A DNA stretch of 64,000 nucleotides from the NCBI RefSeq assembly GCF_900101845.1, contig NZ_FNAM01000002.1, positions 62,001 through 126,000 on the forward strand, written 5' to 3'. Each line of letters opens with the position of its first letter. Position 1 is the first letter of the stretch. Below the pieces are notes generated by a model. It was not told the origin of the DNA and did not search any database. It saw nothing but the letters and a program-made list of their open reading frames with translations. Below, piece by piece: positions 2,840 through 38,897 of this stretch. Origin of the DNA: Sporomusa acidovorans. Its GTDB lineage: Bacteria; Bacillota; Negativicutes; Sporomusales; Sporomusaceae. A program made the translations under genes and the position numbers.

Positions 2840-2856
2840 ACGACCAGCCTCCACTC

Positions 2857-4014
2857 CTACTTGTATCCTTTTTGCATCAGTAACGCCGGCTCAAAGCGCA
2901 GGACCAGCCAAGCGGGAATCAGCGCCAGCAAAAGACACAGGATACAAACTAACGCCAATGTCCCTCCCCCAATCCAGGCTGCGCTCGGAAAATTCAATTC
3001 CGGTAATTGCTGGAAACTGGCGAAATGGTTTGCCAGGAGTATGCCGGCAATTAACCCCGGGGTTCCTCCCCCCAAGGCCAAAAGCAGCCCTTCCAGAGCA
3101 GTCAGCTTAATCAGTTCTGCTTTGGTGGCGCCTAATGACAGCATAATACCCCACTCCCGCATCCGCTCCCAGACATTAATAATGAAGAGTGTTCCGGTTA
3201 ACAGCAAAGTGGCGGTCATCACGAAAATAATAACCAGGGTAAAGAGCGTACCTTGGGACAGCTGCCTTAAACTGCCGCCGACGGCTCCGGTAAATTCCCC
3301 TTTGCCAACAGCTTGTAAGGGTTGAAAACGAATGTTCAGATCAGCAGTCAATTCACGGAGGTAGCCGCTATTTTCACCACGCAGCAACAACCAGGAAACT
3401 GCATCTGCCGGTGACAGGGGACGGAATTCCCGGGCTACCCCCAAGTCCAGATAAACGGTATTGTCCATGTCTGTTCCCGTTTTATCCAGGACCCCGCCAT
3501 TGCGAAAAGTCCGTTGCTCAATTGTAACCATCTCGCCCGGTTCTCCCAAGGCCTTATTGGCATTGCACCCCAGAATCACATGATTCCGGTTCCAGAACCG
3601 TTGTGGGTTTCGTCCGGTTCGCAGCCAGGGAGTTACGATAAAGTCACTGGCTGGATCAAAGCCAACCAGCTTCAGCCGCTGATTGCCCGCCTGAAGCTCT
3701 TTGGCAAACAGTTGAGGTGTTATAGCGGCAATGCCATCCAAAATTTTAGGGTCGCCAGTGTAAACTTGAAGCAACGGAAATACCGTTTCCCGGGGAATGG
3801 CATAATCCAGCTGGCCCTCGGGATAAGCGGCACCCTGGGAAACGATGATGACATCAGGGCCCATTCTCTCCCGGTCCCTCACAACACCAGCGCTTATGGT
3901 CTGACTGACAAGCCAGGCAGTCGCAATGGTGGCTGCCGAAAAGAAAACTGCCGCCAGAATAACGCCATAATGGGTTTTTCTGGCTCTCAGCGCAGCCCAA
4001 ATCAGCCGCAACAT
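2857..4014 (-). CDS. FtsX/MacB-type ABC permease (paralog 3 of 4)
   Basis: A 385-residue permease with one N-terminal membrane helix, a large outer domain and three C-terminal helices containing RMREWGIMLSLGATKAEL. The outer domain holds VGFDPASDFIVTPWL, the shared motif of this paralog set. The start at 4014 follows AGGAGG with a 7-base gap. It sits 20 bases after the ATPase gene at 4035 and is the likely partner of that ATPase together with the permease at 1628. The function is not known beyond the family. Confidence 0.8.
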   Translation of the reverse strand: MLRLIWAALRARKTHYGVILAAVFFSAATIATAWLVSQTISAGVVRDRERMGPDVIIVSQGAAYPEGQLDYAIPRETVFPLLQVYTGDPKILDGIAAITPQLFAKELQAGNQRLKLVGFDPASDFIVTPWLRTGRNPQRFWNRNHVILGCNANKALGEPGEMVTIEQRTFRNGGVLDKTGTDMDNTVYLDLGVAREFRPLSPADAVSWLLLRGENSGYLRELTADLNIRFQPLQAVGKGEFTGAVGGSLRQLSQGTLFTLVIIFVMTATLLLTGTLFIINVWERMREWGIMLSLGATKAELIKLTALEGLLLALGGGTPGLIAGILLANHFASFQQLPELNFPSAAWIGGGTLALVCILCLLLALIPAWLVLRFEPALLMQKGYK

Positions 4015-4034
4015 GGGCATTCCTCCTGTAAAGA

Positions 4035-4745
4035 TTAACCTTCTGCAGCGCTGCCTGTCGGCGGAACCCCGGCGGAACCCCGCGGGTGTAACGTTTTACC
4101 CTTGAGTTCTAAGGCCCGGGTTGCCAAGGCAAGCTGTCCGGCAGCATGCGTAACCAGGATGATGGTAGTCCCTGCTTTGTTCAACTCTGACAGCAGGCCA
4201 AGCATGTGTTGTTCGGTTTCTTTATCCAGATCCGCCGTAGGCTCATCAGCAAAAATATAAGGCGGCTCCAACATCAATGCCCTGGCCAGGCCGGCCCGCC
4301 GCTGCTGTCCCCCGGACAACTGAGCCGGGAACAGACTCGCTTTTTCTTTTAAGCCAGTCTGTTGCAACAGCTTCAGCGCCCTTTCGCGGTCCTGACTTCC
4401 CACCCGCCGGCCTGTGAGCGCCACAGGCAGCAATATATTGTCAAGTATGTTAAGCGCCGGCAGCAAACTAGGGTTTTGGAAAATAAACCCGAATTGTTCC
4501 GCCCGTAATTTTGCCCGGCTGCGATCATCCAAAGAGTAGATATCGCGACCCTCCACCCATATTTTTCCCTGGCTGGGTTTGAGCAGGCCGCCGAGAATAT
4601 GGAGCAAGGTGCTTTTTCCTTCTCCCGAACAACCGGCAATCACCAGAAACTCGCCAGGCTGTATCATTCCGTCGACTCCGTCCAAGACTTCAATCGTCCC
4701 TCCGGGCGTCATAAAGCATTGGCTTACTTTTTCGATTATAATCAA
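4035..4745 (-). CDS. ABC transporter ATPase, LolD/MacB type
   Basis: A 236-residue ATPase with Walker A GCSGEGKST, signature LSGGQQRRAGLARAL and Walker B YIFADEPTADLD. The LSGGQQRR form and the size place it in the LolD/MacB group that works with FtsX-type permeases, which surround it on both sides. A TTG start at 4745 is chosen because GAGGAG precedes it at a normal distance; the frame could extend to 4763. Walker A has Cys in GCSGEGKST where Arg or Pro is commoner. The substrate is unknown. Confidence 0.85.
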   Translation of the reverse strand: MIIIEKVSQCFMTPGGTIEVLDGVDGMIQPGEFLVIAGCSGEGKSTLLHILGGLLKPSQGKIWVEGRDIYSLDDRSRAKLRAEQFGFIFQNPSLLPALNILDNILLPVALTGRRVGSQDRERALKLLQQTGLKEKASLFPAQLSGGQQRRAGLARALMLEPPYIFADEPTADLDKETEQHMLGLLSELNKAGTTIILVTHAAGQLALATRALELKGKTLHPRGSAGVPPTGSAAEG

Positions 4746-4813
4746 GCGACTTCTCCTCTCCAAATTGCATCACCGCCTTTGTTTGCCGGCTATTGTGCAA
4801 AACAGCAAAGCTT

Positions 4814-5947
4814 CTATTCACCGCTGCGAATGGCTTCATAAGGTTCCAGCCGAATGGTTGAAAGAGCCGGATACAGGGCGGCCAAAACCCCGATTATTAA
4901 AGCAACGAGAGAAGTTCCCAGAATCCTCGCCAAAATATAGCCGGGTTCCGGAGACAAAGTCAAAGTCAACAAGGGAACCATGCCCGCCAGAGACAACAGG
5001 AGAATGATAACTGCCAAGACCACGCCGGTCAGAATTCCAAGGCAACAAAGAACCAGGGCCTCACCTAAAATCAGACGCAATATAAACGTTCTTTTGGCTC
5101 CCATGGCTTGTAGAAGCCCAAACTCCCGCCTGCGTTCATACATCATCAAGCTAAACACGGCACCCATGGTCAACATAGAGCCGGCAATGACAAACAACGC
5201 CGCCGCACTGAATCCCCTTCCGGCCAGCAGTCCGTGCAATTGATCATTTATCGTTTTTAACATCTCTGTACGGGTAAGAACCTCTGTATTGGGGAGGTTA
5301 GTCTCAAGTTTATTGGCCATGATGTCTAAAGATGTGCCTGGTTTCAACTGAACCAAAATCCAGGATACTTCCTCCAGTTTGTCCATTAATAAAGGCACGA
5401 AAATTGTCTGGTCCATGAAGGAACCGGTTTCGGCCAGCCGGCCGGCAGGCTTATAATTTTTGCCGCCAATATGGATGTCACCGCTCTTTCCCGGTTCCAC
5501 ATTGCTGCCCAGCAACGCTTCATCGGTTGCGGGCGAGTCCTTATGCTTTGTTTTCTGCAGCCAAGGCTGAACCATGAAGTCTGTGCCGGGATCAAAGCCA
5601 ATAACCCGGATATGGGCAGTTCCCAAAGGAATGGCGCCTAAACAGGACTGGACGGAAATTTTTTCAACTTCCGGGAATGATTGAAGCTGTTTGATAATAG
5701 CCATTGGGAGCTTTCCCTGAGCAGGCGGTCCCTTGGCGACATAAATGTGGCCGCTTGCCTTGGTGCCTGGCTGTACCAGGGCCATATCCGGCCCCAGCAA
5801 TTGGCTGTTATGCTGAACGCCTAGCTGGATACTGCGGGATACGAACAGGGTCAGCAACACCGTAGTCACAGCCAGGGTTACGGCGAACACAATAATAAAG
5901 TTATAAGAAACACGCCCTCGTACGTTTTCCAGAAGCAAATGCCACAT
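4814..5947 (-). CDS. FtsX/MacB-type ABC permease (paralog 2 of 4)
   Basis: A 377-residue permease with the family layout and the motif IGFDPGTDFMVQPWL in its outer domain, then YERRREFGLLQAMGAKRTF before the C-terminal helices. The chosen start MWHLLLENVRG (5947) has GGCGGG upstream; a longer frame to 6034 would overlap the gene before it and adds a basic stretch without similarity to its paralogs. It lies between the BNR-repeat protein and the LolD-type ATPase. Confidence 0.8.
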   Translation of the reverse strand: MWHLLLENVRGRVSYNFIIVFAVTLAVTTVLLTLFVSRSIQLGVQHNSQLLGPDMALVQPGTKASGHIYVAKGPPAQGKLPMAIIKQLQSFPEVEKISVQSCLGAIPLGTAHIRVIGFDPGTDFMVQPWLQKTKHKDSPATDEALLGSNVEPGKSGDIHIGGKNYKPAGRLAETGSFMDQTIFVPLLMDKLEEVSWILVQLKPGTSLDIMANKLETNLPNTEVLTRTEMLKTINDQLHGLLAGRGFSAAALFVIAGSMLTMGAVFSLMMYERRREFGLLQAMGAKRTFILRLILGEALVLCCLGILTGVVLAVIILLLSLAGMVPLLTLTLSPEPGYILARILGTSLVALIIGVLAALYPALSTIRLEPYEAIRSGE

Positions 5948-5975
5948 GCTGTTTCCCGCCTTTCGGCTCTTTTTG

Positions 5976-7142
5976 TTACCAAACAGACTGATTGCCGTCG
6001 GCTGACTTTCTTTTTTTCTTACGCCATAACCCAATGCCGATTAAAGTCAATAGACATCCCACCCCAGCCAGGCCGTAAATGAGCCAGGGCGTACTCCTTT
6101 GCCCTTTCAGCAAATCTAATACCTGGGTGTCGGTATAAGACAATATTCCATACGTAGTACCGGCCAGAACAGTAGGCATCCGATCAGGCACGATATGTAC
6201 TTTGTGCACAAAAGCATTGTCTAAACCGGCATTGATATCAGTCCAGTTTTCTCCCCCGTCAACGCTGCGGAAGGCTCCCCCCCAGGCGCCGGCATAGAGT
6301 ACACCGGGGTGTTGCGGGTTGCCGGCCAACGAAAATACGGTCACACCCACCAGGTTGGTCCCATGCCAAGTACGCCCTCCATCCACAGTCTGATAAACCC
6401 CGCCCACCGCTTCGCCTACATACAGATCGGTCGGCGTAGCCGGATGATAGGACCCGGCCAGCACCCGATCCGGATTTTCCGGGTCAATATAAAGGGTTAA
6501 AATACTCAGACTGCTTAACCCCTGGTTAATATCTTTCCAGGAAACGCCCCCGTTGCCGCTTTTAAATACGCCTGAACCGCCTGTACCGGCAAACAGATAC
6601 TGAGGATTTTTCGGGTCAATAACGATGGTGTTAACGTTTGTGGCCCTTCTAAACCCGGATGACATATGCCATGCTTTGCCGCCATTGGTACTCAGAACCA
6701 CGCCCCCTTGAATACCGGCGTAAATCAGATTTGAATCCTTGGGACTGACGGTGATGCAGCGTACATACAAATTGGGCAACCCTTCATTGATGGCCTGCCA
6801 GGTAACGCCACCGTCCATGCTTTGAAAAATGCCCAATCCGTCATATCCCGCATACAGCACCTTGCTGTTGAAAGGATTGACAGCCACACAACTGGGCGGT
6901 TGTTCCCCAGGCAAACCCTGATTAAGCGGCGACCAGCCGGCCCCGTTGTCGGAACTTTTCAGCACGCCCCGGGAAGTGGCGGCATAAAGAGTGGACGGGC
7001 GCACCGGATCACTGACTATAGATATCACATGCGTCTTGTCAAGCGCGAGCTTATGCCAAACATCTTCACCCGCCCACCCGGTGGCGGCATGCATCAGCAA
7101 CAATCCTGCGACCAGAAAAACAGTTACAATTCTTCTTCCCAT
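5976..7142 (-). CDS. Exported BNR/Ycf48-like beta-propeller with C-terminal membrane anchor
   Basis: This 388-residue protein begins with a signal peptide (MGRRIVTVFLVAGLLLMHAA) cleaved near GWA. It then has six or so repeats built on the pattern SxDGGxxW, for example KSSDNGAGW, QSMDGGVTW, LSTNGGKAW and KSGNGGVSW, typical of BNR/Ycf48 propellers. It ends with one membrane helix (about 352-372) and a basic tail. It therefore faces the periplasm and is anchored at its C-terminus. Ycf48 relatives assist assembly of membrane redox complexes; a similar role here is inference, encouraged by its place in a unit with two cytochrome b modules. Confidence 0.75.
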   Translation of the reverse strand: MGRRIVTVFLVAGLLLMHAATGWAGEDVWHKLALDKTHVISIVSDPVRPSTLYAATSRGVLKSSDNGAGWSPLNQGLPGEQPPSCVAVNPFNSKVLYAGYDGLGIFQSMDGGVTWQAINEGLPNLYVRCITVSPKDSNLIYAGIQGGVVLSTNGGKAWHMSSGFRRATNVNTIVIDPKNPQYLFAGTGGSGVFKSGNGGVSWKDINQGLSSLSILTLYIDPENPDRVLAGSYHPATPTDLYVGEAVGGVYQTVDGGRTWHGTNLVGVTVFSLAGNPQHPGVLYAGAWGGAFRSVDGGENWTDINAGLDNAFVHKVHIVPDRMPTVLAGTTYGILSYTDTQVLDLLKGQRSTPWLIYGLAGVGCLLTLIGIGLWRKKKRKSADGNQSVW

Positions 7143-7166: not shown

Positions 7167-7565
7167 TTACGGGCAGACAATTTTCCACTCTCGCTTTTCC
7201 CGGATCAAATCCATGCTGGTATTTGAACTGTAAGGACCAAATTCCAACGGAATGAAAATGTGCAGGTTGACTACGGCTTTGTTGTTGTCAATTGTTTCTC
7301 CCTGCACTTGCAGCGTCATCTCCGGCGAGTACATACTGACCCGGTCGATAAATTGATTAAAAGAGTCATGGTAATGCTGGCGGCTCACCATCTGGTAGGC
7401 CTTTTGATAATCGCCCTTTTGTACTGCCGCAAAATACTGTTCAATCACTTGCCCCGGAGTTAAGTCCGGGGGGTTGATGTTTTCGTAATAGTAGAATCCC
7501 CCGCCTGCCGCCAGCCCGAGGAAGACCAGCAGCGCCAATGCGCTCAAAACCGTCTTTTTTACCAT
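7167..7565 (-). CDS. Small exported DUF4878-like protein
   Basis: A 132-residue protein with an N-terminal membrane or signal segment (VLSALALLVFLGLAAGGGF) followed by a compact domain containing PGQVIEQYFAAVQKGDYQKAY, the usual opening of DUF4878 and related NTF2-like lipoprotein domains. There is no lipobox Cys. The start at 7565 has AAGGAAGG upstream; a longer frame reaches 7589 but overlaps the ATPase stop. Function unknown. It sits between the ATPase at 7586 and the BNR protein. Confidence 0.65.
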   Translation of the reverse strand: MVKKTVLSALALLVFLGLAAGGGFYYYENINPPDLTPGQVIEQYFAAVQKGDYQKAYQMVSRQHYHDSFNQFIDRVSMYSPEMTLQVQGETIDNNKAVVNLHIFIPLEFGPYSSNTSMDLIREKREWKIVCP

Positions 7566-7585
7566 ATCGCCGCCTTCCTTCCTTC

Positions 7586-8278
7586 TCACAGGTGGTGCAT
7601 CGCTTTTGTCCGGAATTCTTCCGCTGCGAAAGGAACCAGTTTACAGTTTTTTATCGTATATGCCTGACCGACACCAATGTACTTTAAAGCATGGGTAACC
7701 ATGATAACCGTAACACCCTGGCGATTGATCCTTTGAAACAGTTCCATAACCTCTGCTTCTGTTTTTTCATCAAGGTCGCCGGTCGGCTCATCGGTCAGTA
7801 TGATGGCAGGTCTGTTAATCAGAGCGCGGGCAACCGCCACCCGGCGCTGTTGTCCGCCGGAAAGCTGAAACGGATAATTATTGCTTTTATCGGCCATCCC
7901 GACCATTGTCAATAATTCCATGGCATAATCTCTGTCTTGCGGCAGCGGATTCCTATCGCCAAAGGCAATAGGCAACAAGATATTGTCAAGGATTCGCAAG
8001 GTAGGCACCAGACTGGGAAACTGAAACACAAATCCCAGCCTTTGATTCCGCAACCTGGCCAACTGCGGTTCAGGAAGCTGCCAAATATCTGTTCCGCCGA
8101 TCAGGACCCTGCCGGCATCAGGCTTTGTCAAACCGCCGATAATGCTGAGCAAAGTCGTTTTCCCGCCCCCTGACCGGCCGGTTAAAACCATAAATTCTCC
8201 CTCGTTGATTTGCCAGTCGATCCTGTCAAGTACGGTGAGGTCTTGGTACTGTTTTATAACGGCTTCCACACGGATCAT
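7586..8278 (-). CDS. ABC transporter ATPase, LolD/MacB type (second copy)
   Basis: A 230-residue ATPase with Walker A GRSGGGKTT, signature LSGGQQRRVAVARAL and Walker B IILTDEPTGDLD. It starts 3 bases after the stop of the permease at 8282, its evident partner. With the ATPase at 4035 there are two ATPases for four permeases, suggesting two complexes or heterodimeric permeases. Confidence 0.85.
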   Translation of the reverse strand: MIRVEAVIKQYQDLTVLDRIDWQINEGEFMVLTGRSGGGKTTLLSIIGGLTKPDAGRVLIGGTDIWQLPEPQLARLRNQRLGFVFQFPSLVPTLRILDNILLPIAFGDRNPLPQDRDYAMELLTMVGMADKSNNYPFQLSGGQQRRVAVARALINRPAIILTDEPTGDLDEKTEAEVMELFQRINRQGVTVIMVTHALKYIGVGQAYTIKNCKLVPFAAEEFRTKAMHHL

Positions 8279-8281
8279 CCG

Positions 8282-9493
8282 CTAATTCCCCCTTCGAATG
8301 GCGTCATATGGTTCAAGACGGCTGATTGAGAAGGCAGCGTACAGCCCGCCTATGACCCCGGCCAGCAGGGAACCCGTCAGCGCGACCGCCGCCACTGCCA
8401 AAAAGTACGGATTGCCCGGCCAGGTATATAAATTACCGATGAAGGCAGTAAGGATATCACGGCCAAAATAAACAGCGAGATAACCAATAGTCACGCCCAT
8501 TAAGCCGCCGGTCCCCGCAATAAGAATTGCCTCCAGGAGAATGAGCCGAAAGATCATGTTCCGGCTGGCCCCCATAGCGCCAAAAAGTCCAAATTCCCGC
8601 ATACGTTGGCGTACCGAAAGGGTAAAAAGAATACCTACCAGGATGACAGCCAGTAAGGTCAGGGCCAAGCCGATGACATACACAATATCGGCTAATCCCT
8701 GTAATTGCCGGCTAAGCGAACGGGTTAACTGCCCGGCGGTCAATGGTTCCACACCTGGAATGGACTGCCGGATATCCTGGGCAACAGTTTCCGGGTCAAA
8801 GCCATCCTCCAGTTTTATCATGATCGTGGAGATCTGATCTTTTTGCACCGGAACCGGATAAAGCGGCGAGTCCTGAATCATCTGATACGCAACGTTCATA
8901 TTGATAAAGACGGTGTAATCGGTCCCCAGCCCGGTGGGTTCCAAAATACTCGCCACGGAAAAAGGCTTTCCCATGAATACCAGGCGCATGCCGATGGCCT
9001 GACTGGGGATGCCGACTACAGCCGAGATTACCTTGGCGCCCACGATAATTTGATTATCTTTTAATGGTTCCCCGCTTTTTTGTAAAAGCCAGGGCGTAAC
9101 GGTAAAATCCCTTTGGGAATCAATACCCACCAAAGCCACCTGAGCCACGCAACAGGGAGCATCCAGGCTGCGCAGATACACTTGCGGGCTGGTCAACTTG
9201 ACCCCCCGGATCCTGCCAACCTGGTTTTCCAGCACCCGGGGCATGTAAAAGGCGGTAGGATTTCCGGAGATAATGGCCGATTCGGCCTCTTGCCTGGCCT
9301 CGCTCGGAACCACAACCAGATCGGCGCCGAGGCGTTCCCGGGCAGTCTCAATGGTATATTGAATCCCTTTGGACAGTACCGCTGCCAAAAAAAGTGTGCT
9401 GCATGCCAGGGCAATACTCATGATCATGATCCAGGTGCGGAATTTTTTCCGTTTAAAACCTTGTTTGGCAAGATAAAAGGTTTTCCGTAGCAT
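8282..9493 (-). CDS. FtsX/MacB-type ABC permease (paralog 1 of 4) with vicinal cysteines
   Basis: A 403-residue permease with an N-terminal helix, an outer domain and C-terminal helices containing RQRMREFGLFGAMGASRNM. Its outer domain carries VGIDSQRDFTVTPWL, the paralog signature, preceded by a Cys-Cys pair (about residues 114-115, in DAPCCVAQVALVG). None of the other three permeases has this pair; 1628 has SGQNIPAMPIIG at the same place. Paired outer cysteines could bind a metal or a thiol. The gene follows the second subunit IV gene by 71 bases and is probably in the same transcript. Confidence 0.8.
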   Translation of the reverse strand: MLRKTFYLAKQGFKRKKFRTWIMIMSIALACSTLFLAAVLSKGIQYTIETARERLGADLVVVPSEARQEAESAIISGNPTAFYMPRVLENQVGRIRGVKLTSPQVYLRSLDAPCCVAQVALVGIDSQRDFTVTPWLLQKSGEPLKDNQIIVGAKVISAVVGIPSQAIGMRLVFMGKPFSVASILEPTGLGTDYTVFINMNVAYQMIQDSPLYPVPVQKDQISTIMIKLEDGFDPETVAQDIRQSIPGVEPLTAGQLTRSLSRQLQGLADIVYVIGLALTLLAVILVGILFTLSVRQRMREFGLFGAMGASRNMIFRLILLEAILIAGTGGLMGVTIGYLAVYFGRDILTAFIGNLYTWPGNPYFLAVAAVALTGSLLAGVIGGLYAAFSISRLEPYDAIRRGN

Positions 9494-9564: not shown

Positions 9565-10137
9565 TTACCAGGCGGGAGGATCGGCATCCATCATCCAAAA
9601 ATATTGAGGATACTGGTAATGAACCGCCAGCCATTTGTTGTCATAAATCAGGTAGAACTCGTTAATTTTTTCCGGGGCACTGGCAAAGGTATTGCCGAAG
9701 CCTTTTTTGTGGCAGGCATTACAACCCCACAGAGGAGTAGTGCTGCATGTGTGAAACGAAAAAACCGTCAATGCCAGAAAGATGCTCAGGCTGACCGCAA
9801 TAATACTTCTCTTTAGCCACAGTTTGCGAGTAGTCCCCCAATCCATAAACGGCAGCAGGATAAGTCCCACCGTGATAGTTACAGGCAGCCAGAATACGCC
9901 GATTATCTCCATACGATCCCGGAAGTAACGGGTGACTTGGAAGAGCATCATGAAAAGCCAATCAGGCTGGGGAACCGGGGAAGTAAAAACCGGATCAGCA
10001 GGATCCTGCTTTTGCAGGCCGAACAGGGACAGACAGAGAAGTACTAAAGCAGTAACGCCAATCGCAATAGCATGGAAGATGGCATGTTTGGGCCAAAAAG
10101 GGCTTGATTTTAGAGGGTCCGGGTTTTGTTTTACCAT
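9565..10137 (-). CDS. Cytochrome bc subunit IV-like protein with C-terminal heme c, altered Qo motif
   Basis: A 190-residue protein with three or four membrane helices resembling subunit IV of b6f/Firmicute bc complexes. The Qo-site motif normally PEWY reads PDWL (residues 58-61). A CxxCH heme c motif, CNACH (139-143), lies after the last helix. The start has AGGAGG 11 bases upstream. It follows the second cytochrome b gene by 15 bases. The changed motif means quinol oxidation at Qo cannot be assumed. It may instead pass electrons directly to the NosZ-like protein encoded just upstream. Confidence 0.8.
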   Translation of the reverse strand: MVKQNPDPLKSSPFWPKHAIFHAIAIGVTALVLLCLSLFGLQKQDPADPVFTSPVPQPDWLFMMLFQVTRYFRDRMEIIGVFWLPVTITVGLILLPFMDWGTTRKLWLKRSIIAVSLSIFLALTVFSFHTCSTTPLWGCNACHKKGFGNTFASAPEKINEFYLIYDNKWLAVHYQYPQYFWMMDADPPAW

Positions 10138-10152: not shown

Positions 10153-10815
10153 TCACATTGGTTTGGCGACACCTTGCCGGCGTACCATAAAAAAATGACC
10201 AGCCAGGAAACAGCCGCTGAGCAGGGGCAGGACAAATACATGAATGGCGAACCAGCGTCCCACCGGCACAATGCCGTTAACAGTTTCCATGAACAAGAGC
10301 CATCTGAGAGCCCCGGCGAATAGAGGTAATTGATCAAGCCAGTTCAAAATGGTAAGCGCGATCCAATAGGCCCGGAAATCCCAAGGCAAGAGATAGCCGG
10401 TGACTACAAAAGCCATGGTTAAGAGCAAGAGAACAATTCCTGTCACCCAGTTCAGCTCCCGCGGGGGCCTATAGGCACCATGACAGATAATGCGCAGCAT
10501 GTGAAAACTCATAAACAATACCATCAGCAGTGCTCCCCAGCGATGGAGGGCCCGGGCGAAATGGCCCATGCGGGCTTCTGCTTCAATGAATTCAATGCTG
10601 TTCCATGCTCCCAGGGGCGAAGGATCGAAAAACATGCTCATGTACGCGCCGGACAATACTTGGAACAAAAATACCGTAAACGTAATCCCGCCGAAACAAT
10701 AAAGCCAATTGACCCAATTGGGCACCGGCTTGAAAAATTGAGTGGCAAAAGATTGCAAACCCAGCCGCTCGTCCAGCCAACCATAAATTTTTTGCCCGAA
10801 TCCCAATACCGTCAC
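10153..10815 (-). CDS. Cytochrome b6-like protein (second copy)
   Basis: A 220-residue diheme cytochrome b N-terminal half. Heme-ligating histidines appear in ALHRWGALL, SFHMLRII, WFAIHVFVLP and LAGHFFMVRR, the usual two pairs. Cys40 in LYCFGGIT matches the cysteine that binds an extra heme in b6 and Firmicute QcrB. A GTG start at 10815 is chosen because AAGGAGG precedes it; the longer frame to 10893 has a basic, unrelated leader. It lies between the NosZ-like gene and its own subunit IV gene. No second Rieske gene accompanies it. Confidence 0.85.
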   Translation of the reverse strand: MTVLGFGQKIYGWLDERLGLQSFATQFFKPVPNWVNWLYCFGGITFTVFLFQVLSGAYMSMFFDPSPLGAWNSIEFIEAEARMGHFARALHRWGALLMVLFMSFHMLRIICHGAYRPPRELNWVTGIVLLLLTMAFVVTGYLLPWDFRAYWIALTILNWLDQLPLFAGALRWLLFMETVNGIVPVGRWFAIHVFVLPLLSGCFLAGHFFMVRRQGVAKPM

Positions 10816-10889
10816 TACAGAATTCCTCCTTCTCGCCCGTTGCAAAAAAGGGGGGAATCCCCCTCTTGCAACCGAACGGGCGATCAACC

Positions 10890-12524
10890 TCATTCCTCTA
10901 CGATGAACCAGCCGCGCATTTCGAGATGCAGCGGTCCACAGAAGTAGGAGCAGAACATAGCAAATTTACCGGCCTTATCGGCTGGAAATTCAAAGACTAC
11001 CGACTTTCCTTGCGGCACCCCCCAGTTGGTTTGCAAGCCGTACTCATTTATGATGAAACCATGGACAGGAGCCGGATCATTAGTCAGACCTGTAGCCTTA
11101 TCAATGTTAGTTAGGATGAAACGCACGCGATCACCCTTTTTGACAGTAACCGTTTCCGGTTTGAAGCCATAACTGAACTCTTGAAGGCGAACCTCGACCA
11201 CTCCTTCGTCTGTTCTGGTAATGCCGGGAACCCCCGTATCTTCAGGAATAAGCTGAGCCTTTACACTCGGGTCGCGGTGAAGCGGCCAGAGTGAGCCATG
11301 GCCTCCTGGCGGCAGCTCGGCATGCAGATACCCTTTTACTGCGTCCGCCGTTATAATTTTGGCGTTATGCGGTTCGGGAACGGTAGGCGCCCGCCCGATC
11401 AGTTGATCGGTAGCCAAATCAATCAATTCCACGTTGGTGGGGTCTTGGTTTGAAATAGCGCCGGCAAACAACCCGGTGGAAAATTTATTGTAAACAGTCA
11501 CGTATTTACTGTCAGGAGTAATTTGCAGATGACCGGGACGGAAATGGACGGGAATCTTTTTGACCATCTCCATCTTTTCCAGGTCGATTTTGGCAAGAGC
11601 GTTATCCACGAATAAGGTGGCGTAGGCCCATTTGCCATCATTGGTAACTACCGTGTGCAGCGGTCCGGGAGCCGGACTCTTGTTGAAACCGGACACAGGC
11701 GCAGTCAGATCAATGTTTTTGATGACTTCCATCTTGGCAATATCAATGACCGGAATGTTACCGGAAAGTTTACCGGCAACCAAAGCGTATTTACCGTCGA
11801 TGGTCAAATCCATCCCGTGTGGGTTTTTTCCGGCGGGAATAAAATTGACCCGTTTAAAGCTGTCCACTTCAATAACATGGACGCCGGAACGATAGTAATC
11901 AGTGGCCAGGCAATACTTGCCGTCATGGGTCACCACAGGATAGTCCGGGGCCGATTCCTGGCCATCGGAGACGTCAATTACCTCCACTTTACCGCTGGCT
12001 ATGTCAATCTTGGCCATTTTACCGGACAATTCGCCTGTGGCGAAAAGAGTTTTTCCGTCAGGAGTAAGGGCGATGTGGTGCGGCCCAAAAGGAGCGGGAA
12101 TATTGATCTTACGGATAAGCTCCTGAGTGGAAATATCCACGATTCCCACCGACGAATCACCTTTGTCGTTTAAATAAACGTATTTACCGTCAGGAGTTCC
12201 GTTGGTACCCGGTTTGTTGGAACCGGAAAAGACAGGTTCGTGGGTATCCACCCCGACAGGAATCAGTTTAAGGGTCTGCAAACTGGGTACGCCGATAACC
12301 TGCATGGCTCCCGAAACCCCGCCGGAAGCAAACGCAATATATTGGTCTTTGGCGGTTAAATTCCCGGAGCTTGGGCCGAAATTACCCGCATCGCCGGTGG
12401 ACCCGCCTGCCTGAGATTTACTGTCCGTTGGTTTTGAGCCTCCACCGGAACATCCTGCTAATGTAGCAAGTACGGCCGCAATGGCCAGTAAACCGGCTGC
12501 GGTTTTCCACATATTTTTTTTCAT
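10890..12524 (-). CDS. NosZ-like CuA lipoprotein with beta-propeller (nitrous oxide reductase homolog)
   Basis: This 544-residue protein has a lipoprotein signal (TLAGC, Cys25), a beta-propeller (about 60-420) and a C-terminal cupredoxin domain. The cupredoxin keeps the CuA ligands: C525, C529, H533 and M536 in CSYFCGPLHLEM, plus H488. The propeller has histidines at positions matching NosZ CuZ ligands: H95, H149/H150, H236 (NPHGMD), H290 (GPLHT), H332 (PGHL) and H386 (EPHN). The usual His-His pair reads His95-Glu96. VYLNDKGDSSV resembles the NosZ stretch around INDKxNxRV. It is shorter than clade II NosZ (about 640 residues). No nosD, nosL or nosR is nearby. N2O reduction is plausible but unproven given the ligand change. 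Confidence 0.75.
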   Translation of the reverse strand: MKKNMWKTAAGLLAIAAVLATLAGCSGGGSKPTDSKSQAGGSTGDAGNFGPSSGNLTAKDQYIAFASGGVSGAMQVIGVPSLQTLKLIPVGVDTHEPVFSGSNKPGTNGTPDGKYVYLNDKGDSSVGIVDISTQELIRKINIPAPFGPHHIALTPDGKTLFATGELSGKMAKIDIASGKVEVIDVSDGQESAPDYPVVTHDGKYCLATDYYRSGVHVIEVDSFKRVNFIPAGKNPHGMDLTIDGKYALVAGKLSGNIPVIDIAKMEVIKNIDLTAPVSGFNKSPAPGPLHTVVTNDGKWAYATLFVDNALAKIDLEKMEMVKKIPVHFRPGHLQITPDSKYVTVYNKFSTGLFAGAISNQDPTNVELIDLATDQLIGRAPTVPEPHNAKIITADAVKGYLHAELPPGGHGSLWPLHRDPSVKAQLIPEDTGVPGITRTDEGVVEVRLQEFSYGFKPETVTVKKGDRVRFILTNIDKATGLTNDPAPVHGFIINEYGLQTNWGVPQGKSVVFEFPADKAGKFAMFCSYFCGPLHLEMRGWFIVEE

Positions 12525-12690: not shown

Positions 12691-13404
12691 TTATTTTTTC
12701 TTTTGCGACAGGTAGGCGGAAACAGCATGGCGTTCATCGTCGCTGAGAGGAATAACAGACATCATGCTTGTCTGACTTACGGTAGTCGGTTCCAGAATGA
12801 TCTGCTCAATATTGGCACGACTGCGGCGGGCGCCGATTTGACTCAGATCGCCGGCCATAAAACCGCCCTTGCCGTTCATCTGATGACACTGCAGGCAGAA
12901 GGTCTCAAATAACCGCTTGCCTTCCGCCACTTGCATTTCGGTGATGGGCGGCAAATCCATTTTGGCCGGTGCATGCCGGACATCTTCTACCAACGCCAGC
13001 CCGGTTAGCACTACGACGGAAAAGACGCCGAGAATGCCGGCGGCAACCACCTTGGGCCGCTTTCTTAAACCGGTGGCGTCGCCTTTGTCCAGAAAAGGCA
13101 GTGCCACCAAGGCTGCCAAAACAATTGTCGGTACAATGACGATTCCTACCACTGCCAAAGAGCCTTCAAAATACTTGAGTAATTGAAAGAGAAACAAAAA
13201 GTACCACTCCGGCCTGGGCACGTAGCTGGTGTCACTAGGGTCTGCCATATCTTCCAGAGGAACTTGCCAAAGGAAGGAAATGCTCACGACGGCAAGGAGA
13301 ACAAAAAGGGACACGACGGCTTCCACAAATAAATGATGGGGATAAAAGTCGTACCGCAACTCCTCCTGCCTGCCGGAAGGCTGTAGTGTATGTATGGGGT
13401 TCAT
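12691..13404 (-). CDS. Subunit IV fused to cytochrome c (bc complex)
   Basis: A 237-residue fusion. The N-terminal part has three helices and an intact Qo motif PEWY (65-68). The C-terminal part is a c-type cytochrome with CLQCH (170-174) and a likely axial Met in SQTSMMSVIPL. This architecture is the QcrC type of Firmicutes menaquinol:cytochrome c reductases. It completes the first complex with the cytochrome b and Rieske genes upstream. The start follows AAGGAGG by 7 bases. Confidence 0.88.
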   Translation of the reverse strand: MNPIHTLQPSGRQEELRYDFYPHHLFVEAVVSLFVLLAVVSISFLWQVPLEDMADPSDTSYVPRPEWYFLFLFQLLKYFEGSLAVVGIVIVPTIVLAALVALPFLDKGDATGLRKRPKVVAAGILGVFSVVVLTGLALVEDVRHAPAKMDLPPITEMQVAEGKRLFETFCLQCHQMNGKGGFMAGDLSQIGARRSRANIEQIILEPTTVSQTSMMSVIPLSDDERHAVSAYLSQKKK

Positions 13405-13423: not shown

Positions 13424-14092
13424 TTAAAGCGGTCGGGAAATGCCCTGGCGGCGCAGCATGAAGAAATGAACGGCCAGGAAGATAATCAGGAAAGCCGGCA
13501 AGAACATGACATGGATGGCAAAAAAACGGGATAAAGTCAAGGTTCCCACCTCCGAGCCGCCGCGCAGAACGCTTGCCAGGAAATCGCCTACAAGGGGAAC
13601 AGAAGCGGCCACATTCACGCCAACTGCCGTGGCCCAGTACGCTTTTTGATCCCAAGGCAGGAGATAACCGGTAAAGCCAAATCCCATGATAGCGGTAAAG
13701 AGGACAAGCCCGGCTATCCAGTTCAGTTCCCGGGGATTTTTGTATGAACCGGTGAAATAAACCCGCAACATATGCAGGAAAACCATTAATACGGTGGCGC
13801 TGGCACCAACCCGGTGAATTCCCCGGACCAGATTACCGAACAGCACTTCGTTTTGAATGTAATTCACGCTTTGATAAGCATGATCCGGGGACGGAACATA
13901 ATAAAGCATCAGAAACATACCGGTGAGAACCTCAAGAACAATCAGAAGAAAGCTGACTCCGCCGAAGCAGTAGACAAAAGCCGAGGGGCTTTTAAAGACA
14001 TTAACGTGATCAGGTATCGGATGATCCGCTACCGCTCCGATTAACGGACTAAGGTTCAGGCGCTCATCAAGGAATCGGTAAATGCGTCCCAA
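13424..14092 (-). CDS. qcrB: Cytochrome b6-like protein (first copy, QcrB type)
   Basis: A 222-residue diheme cytochrome b with four helices. Heme histidines lie in GIHRVGAS, VFLHMLRVY, FFAIHVMFLP and LAVHFFMLRR. Cys42 in YCFGGVS is the position of the extra covalently bound heme in b6/QcrB proteins. It has a TTG start with GGGAGG upstream. The Rieske gene ends 2 bases before it and the subunit IV/cytochrome c gene follows by 19 bases. Confidence 0.9.
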   Translation of the reverse strand: MGRIYRFLDERLNLSPLIGAVADHPIPDHVNVFKSPSAFVYCFGGVSFLLIVLEVLTGMFLMLYYVPSPDHAYQSVNYIQNEVLFGNLVRGIHRVGASATVLMVFLHMLRVYFTGSYKNPRELNWIAGLVLFTAIMGFGFTGYLLPWDQKAYWATAVGVNVAASVPLVGDFLASVLRGGSEVGTLTLSRFFAIHVMFLPAFLIIFLAVHFFMLRRQGISRPL

Positions 14093-14094
14093 TT

Positions 14095-14583
14095 TTACGC
14101 CTCCCTTACATAGATCTTGTTTTGTTCAACCTTGGCGACCAATTGGGGCAACGGTTTGGGAGGAGGCCCGCCCGTCACCTTGCCTTCCGCATCAAACGCT
14201 CCCCCATGGCAGGGGCAAACAAATTGTTTGGCCGGCGCATCCCATGCGACAGCGCAACCCAAGTGAGTGCAGATGTTGGAAAGCACGATTGGCGTGCCGT
14301 CTGCTTTTCGCAGGATAAAAGCAGTTTTATTTGCCTCCACGGTTCTCCAGCCGTCTTTGCGGGTATAACTGTAGGCTACTTGCAAGGGTTCGCCGTCCTT
14401 GAGCTGATCTACATCGGCGATGGAAATCCAGGTTTCTTCCCCTTTTTTGGTGATGGGAGAAATAGCGAAACCGGCAAGAGGAATCCCCAACCCCGCGGCA
14501 AAAACACCGATAACGGCCATGATCCCGTTGGCGAAAAATTTTCGCCTGGATAATACTTTTCCCATTGCTGGTGATGTCAACAA
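14095..14583 (-). CDS. qcrA: Rieske [2Fe-2S] protein
   Basis: A 162-residue Rieske protein. Cluster ligands are C105 and H107 (CTHLGC) and C123 and H126 (CPCHGG), with the stabilising disulfide cysteines C110 and C125. A SRRKFF twin-arginine-like motif precedes the single N-terminal membrane anchor. It starts at one of two consecutive TTG codons (14583 or 14580), with AAGGAGGG just upstream. It is the first gene after a sigma-54 promoter at 14636-14652 and probably leads the transcript through to 1628. Confidence 0.9.
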   Translation of the reverse strand: MLTSPAMGKVLSRRKFFANGIMAVIGVFAAGLGIPLAGFAISPITKKGEETWISIADVDQLKDGEPLQVAYSYTRKDGWRTVEANKTAFILRKADGTPIVLSNICTHLGCAVAWDAPAKQFVCPCHGGAFDAEGKVTGGPPPKPLPQLVAKVEQNKIYVREA

Positions 14584-14635: not shown

Positions 14636-14652
14636 TGCAAATATTATGCCAA
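14636..14652 (-). promoter_or_regulatory. Sigma-54 promoter of the Rieske/NosZ-like operon
   Basis: On the minus strand the sequence is TTGGCATAATATTTGCA, with GG at 14650-14649 and GC at 14638-14637, exactly 10 bases apart. It agrees closely with the consensus TGGCAC-N5-TTGCA. Transcription would begin near 14626, about 43 bases before the Rieske start. A sigma-54 activator gene ends 170 bases upstream. Confidence 0.88.
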
Positions 14653-14759: not shown

Positions 14760-14799
14760 ATGGGACACGATTGCCTCAAATGAGGCATTTGTGTCCCAT
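14760..14799 (-). promoter_or_regulatory. 19-bp inverted repeat: terminator and/or enhancer site
   Basis: Two 19-base arms (14760-14778 and 14781-14799) pair at 17 of 19 positions around a 2-base loop, with GGGACAC at the outer ends and TGCCTCA inside. On the minus strand it follows the response regulator stop (14825) and is trailed by a short T run, so it could end that transcript. Its centre is also about 130 bases upstream of the sigma-54 -24 element, where an NtrC-type enhancer site is expected. The sequence cannot separate the two roles. Confidence 0.6.
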
Positions 14800-14824: not shown

Positions 14825-16213
14825 CTATTTTACCAGATTATATTTCTTCATCATGCGTTGGATCGTTTTGCGGTCGATGCCAGCCGCCGCGGCTGCTCTG
14901 CTTACATTGGACCGGTACCGTTCCAGCAAGGCTTGCAAATAGCTTCGTTCAAAGGCTTCCACCATCTGGGCCTTGGCGTCAAGAAAGGGAACAGACAACA
15001 ACTCCTCCGCCCCCTGCACCCTGTTCAAACCAGGGTCGCTCGTTCCCTGACTAATAGGACCGGGCAGATCCATAAGCGTAATGTACTCCCCTTCAGCCAG
15101 GACAGCAGCCCGCACGATCATATTTTTTAATTCCCGAACATTGCCGGGCCAAGAATAGCTTTCCAAAGCGTGCATAGCTTCTCGGGAAAAGCCGCTGATT
15201 TTTTTGGAAGATTTTTCATTGAACCGGGCGAGGAAATGATGGGTCAATAAGGGTATGTCGCCGGTACGCTCCCGTAAGGGCGGCAAAGTCATGGTAATCA
15301 CATTCAAGCGATAGTATAAATCCTCCCGGAAACGTTTTTCCTGGATAGCTGTTGGCAGATCCCGGTTCGTGGCTGACAGAATCCGGATATCCACCTGGAT
15401 AAACCGGGTTCCTCCCAGCCTGCGGAAAGAACGTTCCTCCAACACCCGCAAAAGTTTTGCCTGCAGGTGAAGATCCAATTCTCCCAACTCATCCAGAAAG
15501 AGTGTACCGCCATGGGCCATTTCCAAGAGCCCTGGCTTGGCTTGAACCGCGCCGGTAAAGGCCCCTTTTTCATATCCAAACAGTTCACTTTCCAACAGGT
15601 CATGAGGCATAGCCGCGCAGTCTACAGGAATAAAAGGCTGGGAACAGCGGAGACTATTTTCATGCAGACTCCTGGCAAAAACCTCCTTGCCGGTTCCGCT
15701 CTCGCCCAAAATGAGTACATTCAGGTCGGTGGGCGCCACCTTTTTGACCATTTTGAACAGTTTCATCAGGGCCGGACTGTTGCCGATCACCTGTTCCGAG
15801 CGGGTCAAAGCTTCTACCTGGCAGCGAAGCCGCCGGTTTTCCTCAGTTAACCGCTTTTGTGTCAACGCCCGTTTTACCACAACCCGCAATTGTTCCCCGG
15901 AAAAAGGCTTGGCAATAAAATCAAAGGCCCCTCCCTGAATCGCCGCAACGGCGGCAGGAATGGTAGCATAGCCGGTAACGATCAAAACGAGAATGCCGGG
16001 ATCATAATCCTGTACAGCCGTCAATACGTCCATACCGCTGAATTCAGGCATGCTCAAGTCGGTCAACACGACGGCCGGCTTCTTTTCTTTGATGATCTGT
16101 ACACCCTGCTCCCCATCAAAAGCAGTTAAACATTCCAATCCCAGCGGCTTTAGCAGCCGGGCACAACCCCGGGCCATTTCCGGTTCATCGTCAATAATCA
16201 GAATGGAATCCAT
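14825..16213 (-). CDS. NtrC-family sigma-54 response regulator
   Basis: A 462-residue regulator with three domains. The receiver has the acidic pocket IIDDEPE and phospho-acceptor Asp in LTDLSMPEFSG (about residue 52). The AAA+ domain has Walker A GESGTGKE and the sigma-54 contact loop GAFTGA. The Fis-type helix-turn-helix at the end reads SNVSRAAAAAGIDRKTIQRMM. The kinase gene lies 12 bases upstream. Sigma-54 promoters precede both the unit containing this gene and the divergently acting Rieske unit, its most likely targets. Confidence 0.9.
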   Translation of the reverse strand: MDSILIIDDEPEMARGCARLLKPLGLECLTAFDGEQGVQIIKEKKPAVVLTDLSMPEFSGMDVLTAVQDYDPGILVLIVTGYATIPAAVAAIQGGAFDFIAKPFSGEQLRVVVKRALTQKRLTEENRRLRCQVEALTRSEQVIGNSPALMKLFKMVKKVAPTDLNVLILGESGTGKEVFARSLHENSLRCSQPFIPVDCAAMPHDLLESELFGYEKGAFTGAVQAKPGLLEMAHGGTLFLDELGELDLHLQAKLLRVLEERSFRRLGGTRFIQVDIRILSATNRDLPTAIQEKRFREDLYYRLNVITMTLPPLRERTGDIPLLTHHFLARFNEKSSKKISGFSREAMHALESYSWPGNVRELKNMIVRAAVLAEGEYITLMDLPGPISQGTSDPGLNRVQGAEELLSVPFLDAKAQMVEAFERSYLQALLERYRSNVSRAAAAAGIDRKTIQRMMKKYNLVK

Positions 16214-16225
16214 CGCAATTATCCC

Positions 16226-17524
16226 CTAGAGTTTCGATTTGCTCGGTAAAAGAACGGCAAAAGTGCTTCCCTGCCCTTTTTCACTAAATACCTGGATCTG
16301 TCCGCCATGCTGCTGGATGATGCTATAACTGATCGACAGTCCCAACCCCGTCCCCCGGCCCCGTTCCTTTGTCGTAAAAAATGGTTCAAAAATCTGATCC
16401 TGGAGATTTTCGGGAATGCCGCAGCCTGTATCCTGAATCTCAACTTTTAGCCATTGGGCGTTATACCTGCCAGTGCGAATTGTCAAGGTTCCCCCCTCGG
16501 GCATAACGTCTTTGGCATTGTTGATCAAGTTCAGGAATACTTGCTGCAATTGATCCGCATTGGCTGAAATTTTGACGTTGCCGGCAAATTCTGTTTTGAT
16601 CCGGATATTATTTTTACTCAGTTGCTTGGCGACAAAGGATATAACCTCTTCCAACAATTGCCGTAAATCAACCCATGTTTTTCCTTTTAACGCTGGCCGG
16701 GCAAAGGATAGCATGGAACGTACGATTGTCCCTATTTTTTTAGCGTGCTTGATAATAATCTCCAAGTCTTCCTGCTGTTCGGCCGACAATCCTTCTTTTT
16801 CCAATAACATACACTCAGCCCGGGATACAATTACCCCGGCGGGATTATTGATCTCATGGGCCAAATCTGCCGTCAAACGACCCGCCATCGCCAGTTTCTC
16901 CGACTGAATCAACTGGGTCTGGGTGGTTTTCAACTCTTCGAGCATGTTGGCCAAATCCCTGGCCATCTGGTGCATTTCCGTATTGGCGCAGCGTAACTCC
17001 TGCTTTTCCGCTTCAAGGTGGCGTATCAAATAATCCCGCTGAATGGCTACCCCCATCAAGTTCGCCATGACAAGAAGAATTTCCAGAGCTTCCCGGTCAT
17101 AAAAGTCTGCTTCAAAGCTGCTTGAGGATAGGACGCCCAGGATCTTCTTGCCGGCCACGATAGGCAAACAGGTGTAGGAGTGAAACTCCAGAGCTATTCC
17201 ACAATTTGGACAGCCCTCCTCTTTGTCCGTATCCCGCACAACCACAGGCAAAACATCCCGTACCACCTGGCACTTCCGAAATTCCATCGATCGTACCGGA
17301 CAGTTGCACCGGTTCCCCGACTTGCAAGGACAGACCGAAACTTCTTCCCCTATGTTACCGAATTCAGCTATGGAAACGCATAGACGATCAGGGTTTAATA
17401 ACTTTTTGATCTCGCCTTGGATGGCAGATAGGCTGGCCGACAGATCCTGCGGTAAAAACCCCAGCAAATTGTTGAGTTTGATGAGCGATTTAACGATTTG
17501 TTCCTGCGACACTGGTTGTGCCAA
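16226..17524 (-). CDS. Sensor histidine kinase with cysteine-rich GAF domain
   Basis: A 432-residue soluble kinase; no membrane segment is visible. Residues 1-170 form a GAF-like domain holding nine cysteines (49, 65, 67, 73, 75, 85, 105, 108, 119), including CPCKSGNRCNC and GCPNCG. A coiled coil leads to the HisKA box LTADLAHEINNPAG and the ATPase boxes NLINNAKDV, DTGCGIP and GRGTGLGLS. The cysteines could hold an Fe-S cluster or Zn and sense oxygen, NO or redox state; that is inference. A TTG start follows GGGGGGAG. The partner regulator starts 12 bases after the stop. Confidence 0.85.
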   Translation of the reverse strand: MAQPVSQEQIVKSLIKLNNLLGFLPQDLSASLSAIQGEIKKLLNPDRLCVSIAEFGNIGEEVSVCPCKSGNRCNCPVRSMEFRKCQVVRDVLPVVVRDTDKEEGCPNCGIALEFHSYTCLPIVAGKKILGVLSSSSFEADFYDREALEILLVMANLMGVAIQRDYLIRHLEAEKQELRCANTEMHQMARDLANMLEELKTTQTQLIQSEKLAMAGRLTADLAHEINNPAGVIVSRAECMLLEKEGLSAEQQEDLEIIIKHAKKIGTIVRSMLSFARPALKGKTWVDLRQLLEEVISFVAKQLSKNNIRIKTEFAGNVKISANADQLQQVFLNLINNAKDVMPEGGTLTIRTGRYNAQWLKVEIQDTGCGIPENLQDQIFEPFFTTKERGRGTGLGLSISYSIIQQHGGQIQVFSEKGQGSTFAVLLPSKSKL

Positions 17525-17618: not shown

Positions 17619-18656
17619 TTAAATCGGTTTATTCGGTTTCTCTCCCGCTGGTTTCTCCACTAACATCCGAATATTTTCCACCCGTGATTCCGGTGGTATC
17701 TCGCAGCCGGAGCTAAGAATCCAGCCATTTTTTCCTGGATCATGGCCCATCTTTTTACACAGCGCCCCTATTTCTTGAGCGATAAATTCCGGGCCGTCCA
17801 TAACAAAAGAAAGCGGTTTCAAATTTCCTGCCAAAGCGGCAGCGGGAGCCAGCGTCCGAGCCTCCGCCAAATCCACCTGATAATCTACTGTCAGCAAATC
17901 GGCCCCTGCTTGGGCCATGCCCGGCAGGATTCCCCAGGTATATCCCACAATTTGCAGCCAAAGCAAAAACGGCTTCAAACTCCGCAGCTCTTGCAGGATG
18001 GCTTGCTGAAAAGGCAGAACCATTTCGGCATACATATTTTTAGGAATCAGATTGGGCGATGCCGAGGGGTCATTCAGCATAATTATGTGAGCGCCTGCCC
18101 GCAACAAGAGTCGGGCAAACTGCAAAGACGCCTCGGTTGTTCTTTTCAACAGGCGCAAAAAGCCTTCCGGTTCATCGGCAAGGGTAAAAAGCAGTTTTTC
18201 AATGCCCAGGATTTGCCCGGCCAAAGTGACCGGACCGGTCACAATTCCGATAACCGGAATATTATCTTCAGCCCTTTGGCGTAAAATTCCACACGCTTGT
18301 TGCAGGACAGAAAAAATGCCCGCCTGGCAATTCGGTACCGGCTTTAGCTTGCCCCAATCCTGCCAGGACTCCAGAACCGGTTTTACGATGTGGGGATAAT
18401 AATGGGACGGATAAGCCAGAGAGCACCCCAGGGCTTCGGCTTCCACCGCATTCCCGCCATAAACGAAAAGAGCATCATAACCCAGAGTTTGTTGGGCCGC
18501 CCATTGACAATCAGCCATTACTTTACCACAATGAATATACTGATATATGGTCACGCCGGCCATGACGGCGGCCAAACCGTACACTTGCGGCGCCGACGGA
18601 ATCCTGTCTGCCGGCGAAAAGGATGCGGCGGCAAGAAAACGCTCCAGACTATTCAT
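17619..18656 (-). CDS. UroD/MtaA-like protein lacking zinc ligands
   Basis: A 345-residue protein of the uroporphyrinogen decarboxylase/cobamide methyltransferase family, with MLNDPSASPNLIPKNMY and the corrinoid gene overlapping its start by 4 bases, as in methyltransferase operons. MtaA enzymes bind zinc through His-x-Cys-Gly and a later Cys. Here the first motif reads LQIVGYT (Gln235, Val237); the later Cys318 (SSGCEI) remains. It may therefore not activate a thiol in the usual way, and a binding or sensing role with the corrinoid protein is possible. No methyltransferase MtaB/MttB-type gene is adjacent. Confidence 0.75.
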   Translation of the reverse strand: MNSLERFLAAASFSPADRIPSAPQVYGLAAVMAGVTIYQYIHCGKVMADCQWAAQQTLGYDALFVYGGNAVEAEALGCSLAYPSHYYPHIVKPVLESWQDWGKLKPVPNCQAGIFSVLQQACGILRQRAEDNIPVIGIVTGPVTLAGQILGIEKLLFTLADEPEGFLRLLKRTTEASLQFARLLLRAGAHIIMLNDPSASPNLIPKNMYAEMVLPFQQAILQELRSLKPFLLWLQIVGYTWGILPGMAQAGADLLTVDYQVDLAEARTLAPAAALAGNLKPLSFVMDGPEFIAQEIGALCKKMGHDPGKNGWILSSGCEIPPESRVENIRMLVEKPAGEKPNKPI

Positions 18657-19297
18657 ATTTTCCTCCCCGTCTCCCTATTTAAATAACGAAGCCCGTCAAA
18701 GACGTCCATGGCCACATAATCAACCTCTAAATCCTCTGCCCGGGCCTGTTGCAGCGCAGCCCCCCCGGCCATGATTTTAACAGAAATACCAGCCTTTCGA
18801 CATAATTCTCTGATCTGCCGAATGTAAGGAATGGAAACGGTAATCAGACTGGATACCAAAATGAAACTGGCTTTCTCTACCGTTGCCGTATGCACCAAGA
18901 GAGCCGGTTCCACATCCTTGCCAAGATCAACAACCCGATAGCCTGCCGCCTTTAATACAATATTGACAATGTGCTTGCCTAAGTCGTGGATGTCGCCCTT
19001 GATCGTCCCCAGCACCACCGTCGGCCCGGTAAGAGAGGCTTCGCTTGATTCGGGAAGGCGGCGTCCCACCACTTTGTCCATGACATCCACCATGGCCCGG
19101 CCGGCCAAAATAAGTTCCAGCAAGTTGAATTCTTCCGAGGTGCACTTTAAATCCAGTGATGTCAGTGCCGCCGTCAACCCATCCTGAATAATGATTTGAA
19201 CCGGCATTCCCGCCTGAACCAGTTCTTCGGCTGTTTTCACCGCCAGCTTGTTTTTCCCTTCGACTACAGCAGTAATCAATGTATCCAGCGTTGCCAT
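18653..19297 (-). CDS. Corrinoid (cobamide-binding) protein, MtbC/MtaC type
   Basis: A 214-residue two-domain protein. The N-terminal helical cap contains LILAGRAMVDVMDKV. The Rossmann-like B12 domain contains the cobalt-ligand motif GDIHDLGKHIV, with Asp102, His104 and Gly107. Such proteins carry a methyl group between a substrate methyltransferase and a second methyltransferase. It overlaps the UroD/MtaA-like gene by 4 bases. The DUF4418 gene lies 164 bases upstream and probably shares its sigma-54 promoter. Confidence 0.9.
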   Translation of the reverse strand: MATLDTLITAVVEGKNKLAVKTAEELVQAGMPVQIIIQDGLTAALTSLDLKCTSEEFNLLELILAGRAMVDVMDKVVGRRLPESSEASLTGPTVVLGTIKGDIHDLGKHIVNIVLKAAGYRVVDLGKDVEPALLVHTATVEKASFILVSSLITVSIPYIRQIRELCRKAGISVKIMAGGAALQQARAEDLEVDYVAMDVFDGLRYLNRETGRKI

Positions 19298-23104: not shown

Positions 23105-23134
23105 GAAAATTGACCTCCCGGTAAAATATTAGTG

Positions 23135-36939: not shown

Positions 36940-36956
36940 GTAAATCCCCCCCTGCT

Positions 36957-38760: not shown

Positions 38761-38897
38761 GCTTACACCTCTCCTTTTTACTTGATATATAGAGGTTACT
38801 AACCCCATGCCTGAAAGAAAATCTTTATTGGAATTCCTATAGTACAAAACGGTTGCCAGATTTGTGTATTTTTTAACCATTGTATTACAAAAGCAAA

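Follow-up and report, generated by a model that had tools for sequence, protein, structure and literature searches.

Members of the genus Sporomusa are acetogens, and one gene in the stretch of S. acidovorans DNA analysed here (64,000 nucleotides, hereafter the window) raises the question of whether it encodes an N2O reductase and, if so, of which kind and with which partners. A preliminary description of this gene proposed either a divergent N2O reductase or a copper enzyme for another substrate. NosZ has been described as the only known enzyme that converts N2O to N2 (PMC13122619). A paper of 2024 (PMC11033732) described a clade of distant NosZ-like proteins whose propeller is of the lactonase type, listed Sporomusa acidovorans DSM 3132 as a member and called for experiments, and the clade III family has been published by He et al. 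(Nature 2025, 646:152-160). Clade III is taken as established in PMC13122619, PMC13274427, PMC12569097 and PMC13033781, in the last of which primers for clades I and II were used in PCR and clade III was checked separately in silico. What we add to the published family is the operon context of the gene and its recurrence in Desulfovibrio-type metagenome-assembled genomes (MAGs), and no claim to priority is made.

The open reading frame is intact, begins with ATG and encodes 544 aa (Table 1). A hydrophobic N-terminal stretch is followed by a lipobox-like LAGC, recognised by eye, and then by a propeller (approximately residues 60-395) and a C-terminal CuA cupredoxin domain (approximately residues 440-544). 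The NCBIfam profile NF052460.1, a curated equivalog model named "L-NosZ, clade III lactonase-type nitrous-oxide reductase", matches residues 60-544 over its full length (positions 1-480 of 480) with 914.5 bits (E 1.1e-275, cut-off 700). It is the sole NCBIfam model matched over the whole profile and above its cut-off, apart from the short propeller-repeat model TIGR02276, which also exceeds its cut-off and is uninformative on function. The models for clade II (TIGR04246, 228.1 bits) and clade I (TIGR04244, 179.8 bits) both stay below their cut-off of 625. Pfam assigns YNCE-like and Lactonase (PF10282) domains to the propeller, where a nos_propeller repeat also passes its cut-off, and Cupredoxin_1 (PF13473) to the C-terminus, and a sequence search of the PDB gives nitrous-oxide reductases as the best matches (E 4.9e-40). 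The lactonase-type propeller with C-terminal cupredoxin that PMC11033732 gives for clade III is thus present in the window protein. Judged by these matches, the window gene belongs to clade III (L-NosZ), an already published family, and is possibly a carrier already listed there. Two proposals of the preliminary description hold at this level: the lipid anchor agrees with the lipobox-like motif, and a length of about 100 residues less than clade II NosZ fits the 480 positions of the L-NosZ model as against 578 for clade II.

The predicted structure points in the same direction. AlphaFold2, run with an 18-row alignment, returned a propeller and a cupredoxin at moderate confidence (pLDDT 73.1, pTM 0.66), and the best 50 of the 1826 PDB chains retrieved by Foldseek at E <= 0.001 all belong to NosZ, with a best E of 2.0e-30, TM near 0.52 and rmsd near 17 A. 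Histidines 149, 236, 290, 332 and 386 lie in or beside predicted strands 150-153, 235-240, 288-293, 330-335 and 387-392, one for each propeller repeat when blades are assigned by eye, and by the same assignment the corresponding strand 193-198 is without a histidine. Confidence in the model is low around H95-E96 (pLDDT 60 for residues 91-100).

Copper ligands were compared in two alignments. One holds the window protein and 17 of 18 relatives found by a pattern-based scan of named genomes, locus L026 being left out; the other has eight rows, namely the window protein, four of those 17 relatives and three plasmid-borne clade I NosZ proteins, to which the window protein is 31-32% identical. Clade II sequences stand outside both and were compared through the TIGR04246 profile only, with which the window protein aligns in the C-terminal half at a score far under the cut-off. 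In the eight-row alignment every row, including the three clade I proteins, has histidine at the positions of H95, H149, H236, H290, H332 and H386, and H95 and E96 align with the first and second histidines of the clade I His-His pair. Six of the seven CuZ histidines are therefore aligned and E96 occupies the seventh position. Pairwise alignment with P. stutzeri NosZ from the PDB search places H236 on residue 326 and H290 on residue 382. The ligands of that enzyme, which we take to be residues 129, 130, 178, 326, 382, 433 and 494, with 583 for CuA, agree with the mutant names in PDB titles.

All of H95, E96, H149, H150, H236, H290, H327, H332 and H386 are identical in the 18 rows of the larger alignment. 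The preliminary description had correctly read His95-Glu96 at the first pair, but had treated it as an oddity; because the pair is invariant in 18 of 18 aligned clade III proteins, it is no individual departure, and on this alignment the His-Glu pair is the normal state of the family. The propeller histidines reported at six CuZ places and the joint presence of H149 and H150 were confirmed. H150 is invariant among the clade III rows, whereas the clade I rows read Arg, Arg and Ala there, and either E96 or H150 may be the seventh CuZ ligand. The CuA ligand set of clade I and clade II NosZ, also reported earlier as kept, is complete in the window protein (H488, C525, C529, H533 and M536). Four of these residues, C525, C529, H533 and M536, are identical in every row of both alignments. 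Position 488 is His in the window protein, in the 11 Desulfovibrio-type rows and in clade I, and Met in the six groundwater-type rows (L022, L023, L024, L025, L027 and L028), in which the CuA site may be altered. The CuZ pair is also His-Glu in the Nitrospinota protein left out of the larger alignment (L026:1198-4614). In that protein H149-H150 are replaced by Asn-Asn, the CuA cysteines are missing and the C-terminus carries a long fused extension; it is probably not an N2O reductase. A second candidate in the same genome has a slightly better clade II score.

Comparison with known N2O reductases thus places the window protein as follows. With clade III it has in common the full-length profile match, the His-Glu pair, a propeller scored as Lactonase, and clade I and II scores below cut-off. 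The lipobox sets the window protein apart from its Desulfovibrio-type relatives, 10 of the 11 Desulfovibrio-type proteins having no Cys at that place and the remaining one (L019) having a Cys without a typical lipobox, all judged by eye. With clade I NosZ (P. stutzeri, PDB 3sbp and relatives) it shares the propeller and cupredoxin, six of the seven CuZ histidines and the CuA His/Cys/Cys/His/Met set, but clade I has a His-His pair where the window protein has His-Glu, and is annotated as TAT-dependent. In two of three fetched clade I records the gene is flanked by nosR and nosD.

The gene lies fourth in an operon that runs downwards from position 14583 on the minus strand, beginning with a Rieske gene, and all genes of the operon are open reading frames. 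The second cytochrome b6 gene overlaps L-NosZ by 4 bases. An operon with a MacB-type transporter and a BNR propeller distinguishes the window gene from clade III at large.

Table 1. Features of the L-NosZ operon and its surroundings in the window, with the number of Desulfovibrio-type loci (of 11) in which each operon gene was matched
Feature	Position	Strand	Evidence or remark	Loci
L-NosZ, clade III (lactonase-type) N2O reductase, lipoprotein	10890..12524	-	NF052460.1, Pfam, PDB, AlphaFold2, Foldseek	11/11
Codons of H95-E96 (CuZ His-His position reads His-Glu)	12237..12242	-		
Rieske iron-sulfur protein, first operon gene	14095..14583	-	PF00355 E 2.9e-15	9/11
Cytochrome b6-type subunit	13424..14092	-	PF00033 E 6.8e-54	11/11
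Cytochrome b C-terminal module fused to c-type cytochrome (CLQCH)	12691..13404	-	PF00032 + PF00034	11/11
Second cytochrome b6-type subunit	10153..10893	-	PF00033 E 2e-38	11/11
Second cytochrome b C-terminal part (subunit IV-like), one CNACH heme motif	9565..10137	-	PF00032 E 7.5e-5	10/11
MacB/FtsX-type ABC permease	8282..9493	-	PF02687, PF12704	10/11
ABC ATPase	7586..8278	-	PF00005 E 1.2e-32	9/11
Small exported/membrane-anchored protein	7167..7589	-	DUF4829-like, below Pfam cut-off	9/11
BNR/sortilin-type propeller	5976..7142	-	PF15902 E 1.5e-13; C-terminal hydrophobic segment (by eye)	8/11
Second MacB/FtsX-type permease	4814..6034	-		8/11
LolD-like ATPase	4035-4763	-	outside conserved order	0/11
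Further MacB-type permease	2857-4020	-	outside conserved order	0/11
Further MacB-type permease	1628-2854	-	outside conserved order	0/11
Sigma-54-like -24/-12 sequence TGGCATAATATTTGCA	14636..14651	-	upstream of Rieske gene; suggestive only	
19-nt inverted repeat	14760-14799		17/19 pairs	
NtrC-type response regulator	14825-16213	-	candidate regulator	
GAF-domain histidine kinase	16226-17524	-	candidate regulator	
URO-D-type and B12-binding corrinoid proteins	17619-19297			
NapA-like reductase with NapG-, NapH- and NrfH-like proteins	20843-24981		below NCBIfam cut-offs	
NapH-like protein (polyferredoxin type)	23640-24689			
asrC, asrB, asrA (anaerobic sulfite reductase)	35977-38880		over NCBIfam cut-offs	
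Crp-like regulator	38917-39624		by eye	
CcmA-like ATPase	359-988		128.2 vs ccmA cut-off 131.6	

Gene order around L-NosZ was compared by tblastn in loci L011-L028, and it recurs in the Desulfovibrio-type MAG loci L011-L021 (n=11), to which the counts in Table 1 refer. Most gaps in that order fall where a stretch of sequence ends. The Rieske gene is missed in L012 and L015, whose stretches start inside cytochrome b; the second cytochrome b C-terminal part and the first MacB permease are missed in L017, which ends earlier, as it does for the ATPase and small protein; and L012 and L017 both end before the BNR propeller and the next permease. From the ATPase onwards L011 gives no match, though its stretch goes on. 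The LolD-like ATPase and the last two permeases were matched in none of the 11 loci, though several stretches extend 1-2 kb further, and the NtrC-type and GAF-kinase regulators of the window likewise have no match in any of them. The order is not kept in the seven other loci (L022-L028), where scattered matches to the cytochrome b-type, b-c fusion and small proteins occur in L022, L025, L027 and L028. The window L-NosZ shares 79-86% identity with its closest relatives, and the partner proteins approximately 40-79%. As for the source of these relatives, the sample codes of ten of the Desulfovibrio-type loci presumably denote termite origin. That of the eleventh, L016 (Nt197, P3), refers to the humus-feeding termite Neocapritermes taracua (PMC7024585).

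L-NosZ over the cut-off was found in 1 of 60 genomes, the window genome, and in none of the eight other genomes of the same genus searched, one of which has a completeness of 58%; at E <= 0.001 a match of some kind exists in six of the 60. Among 350 genomes of the class the only one over the cut-off was again the window genome. Neither the first cytochrome b of the operon nor the BNR propeller protein was matched at E 1e-20 in 30 other genomes. In a tree the window protein is grouped with the 11 Desulfovibrio-type rows (100/100); it is given no place among them, hence no direction, and long branches meet at the root. The G+C content of the operon (51.4%), of window positions 14800-64000 (49.0%) and of L011-L021 (54-64%) is of no help on the direction of transfer. 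Viral contigs gave 45 pattern matches with no relative of L-NosZ among them, and matches in 488 plasmid records were every one below 60% identity. This distribution, taken with the gene order conserved in Desulfovibrio-type genomes, supports movement of the operon as a unit between distant bacteria by horizontal transfer.

Maturation genes were sought in 19 genomes, the window genome and 18 MAGs with L-NosZ or a close relative, MAGs that may be incomplete. Not all 19 are strict carriers, because the proteins of L025 and L028, two of the three groundwater-type proteins scanned, fall just under the L-NosZ cut-off (663.2 and 694.7). NosL was matched in 0 of 19, in a search whose controls passed the cut-off in two genomes. 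NosD over the cut-off was likewise found in 0 of 19, a weaker negative because no control genome passes that cut-off; the window genome has no NosD match at all, and 4 of the 18 MAGs have weak partial ones. Clade II NosZ exceeded its cut-off in none of the 19, the controls also remaining below it. The NosD and NosL maturation genes of clade I and II NosZ are accordingly not found in the window genome, which further sets the window protein apart from clade II; the preliminary description had noted that nosL and nosD are not nearby, and these searches extend the statement from the neighbourhood to the genome, for NosD without a passing control. Given 0 of 19 for both, assembly of the copper site may follow another course here. 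Such an absence is not general to clade III, because in one Nitrospirota MAG a clade III gene is accompanied by nosDFLYX according to PMC11033732.

Upstream of the operon, both the inverted repeat and the sigma-54-like site lie between the NtrC-type regulator gene and the Rieske gene. The window holds seven sigma-54-like sites, a number reached in 48 of 100 shuffles and so no excess over chance. The inverted repeat occurs at one place in the genome and beats 300 shuffles of its region; lying just behind the regulator gene, it may be that gene's terminator. The URO-D-type and corrinoid proteins adjoin the regulator genes, and a Crp-like regulator gene is found beside the asr genes. Beyond the edge of the window are a CcmF/NrfE-like protein and an NrfHA-like pair (L029:5526-7311), below cut-offs. 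With Nap-like and NrfHA-like genes in or just outside the window, the N2O reductase has neighbours that resemble genes for nitrate and nitrite reduction, two processes of which the organism may also be capable.

Taking the evidence together, we consider it highly probable that the window gene encodes a clade III N2O reductase, exported and lipid-anchored, that acts as a respiratory sink, with an electron path and maturation proteins of its own operon. Respiration would use N2O as an electron sink, with L-NosZ reducing it to N2. Quinol would be oxidised by the Rieske/cytochrome b module, and we infer that the operon's c-type hemes would carry the electrons to CuA of the cupredoxin domain, from where they would reach the propeller copper cluster. 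That cluster would be held by H95, H149, H236, H290, H332 and H386, with E96 or H150 for the missing ligand. In copper-site assembly the MacB-type ABC transporter, the small exported protein and the BNR propeller would probably replace NosDFY/NosL. A more specific version, in which the E96 carboxylate is the seventh ligand, the MacB, small and BNR proteins carry out assembly instead of NosDFYL, and the whole is an interphylum respiratory cassette passed from or to Desulfovibrio-type gut bacteria, is a tentative proposal that we regard as rather doubtful.

A CuA propeller protein that merely resembles N2O reductases could instead act on a different substrate such as NO or hydroxylamine, or in copper handling, and hydrazine synthase beta, nitrosocyanin and lactonase-type propellers do resemble the window protein, though more weakly. 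The first two of these score 60.5 and 30.1 bits, respectively, against 914.5 for L-NosZ, however, and all six aligned CuZ histidines are kept. Such a function is improbable, and an enzyme for another substrate was set aside on the far higher L-NosZ score. The corresponding alternative in the preliminary description thus found no support, non-NosZ models scoring far below L-NosZ, whereas its divergent N2O reductase is backed by the profile match and by the NosZ chains among the Foldseek matches shown. A clade III N2O reductase might also survive in this organism as a non-functional relic of transfer, as its presence over the cut-off in only one of nine genomes of the genus searched could suggest, but the operon genes are open and the ligands kept. 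L-NosZ is moreover conserved above its partner proteins, which suggests purifying selection, and a relic appears very unlikely.

For a clade III N2O reductase in this setting, the points of interest that remain are which residue serves as seventh ligand and how a cassette that apparently moves between phyla builds its copper site without NosD and NosL. The lack of NosL matches, and of NosD matches over the cut-off, in the 19 genomes makes copper-site assembly directly testable with a few named genes. If the reading given here is true, a cassette common to Sporomusa and Desulfovibrio-type gut bacteria would mean N2O respiration in hosts that are seldom counted as sinks.
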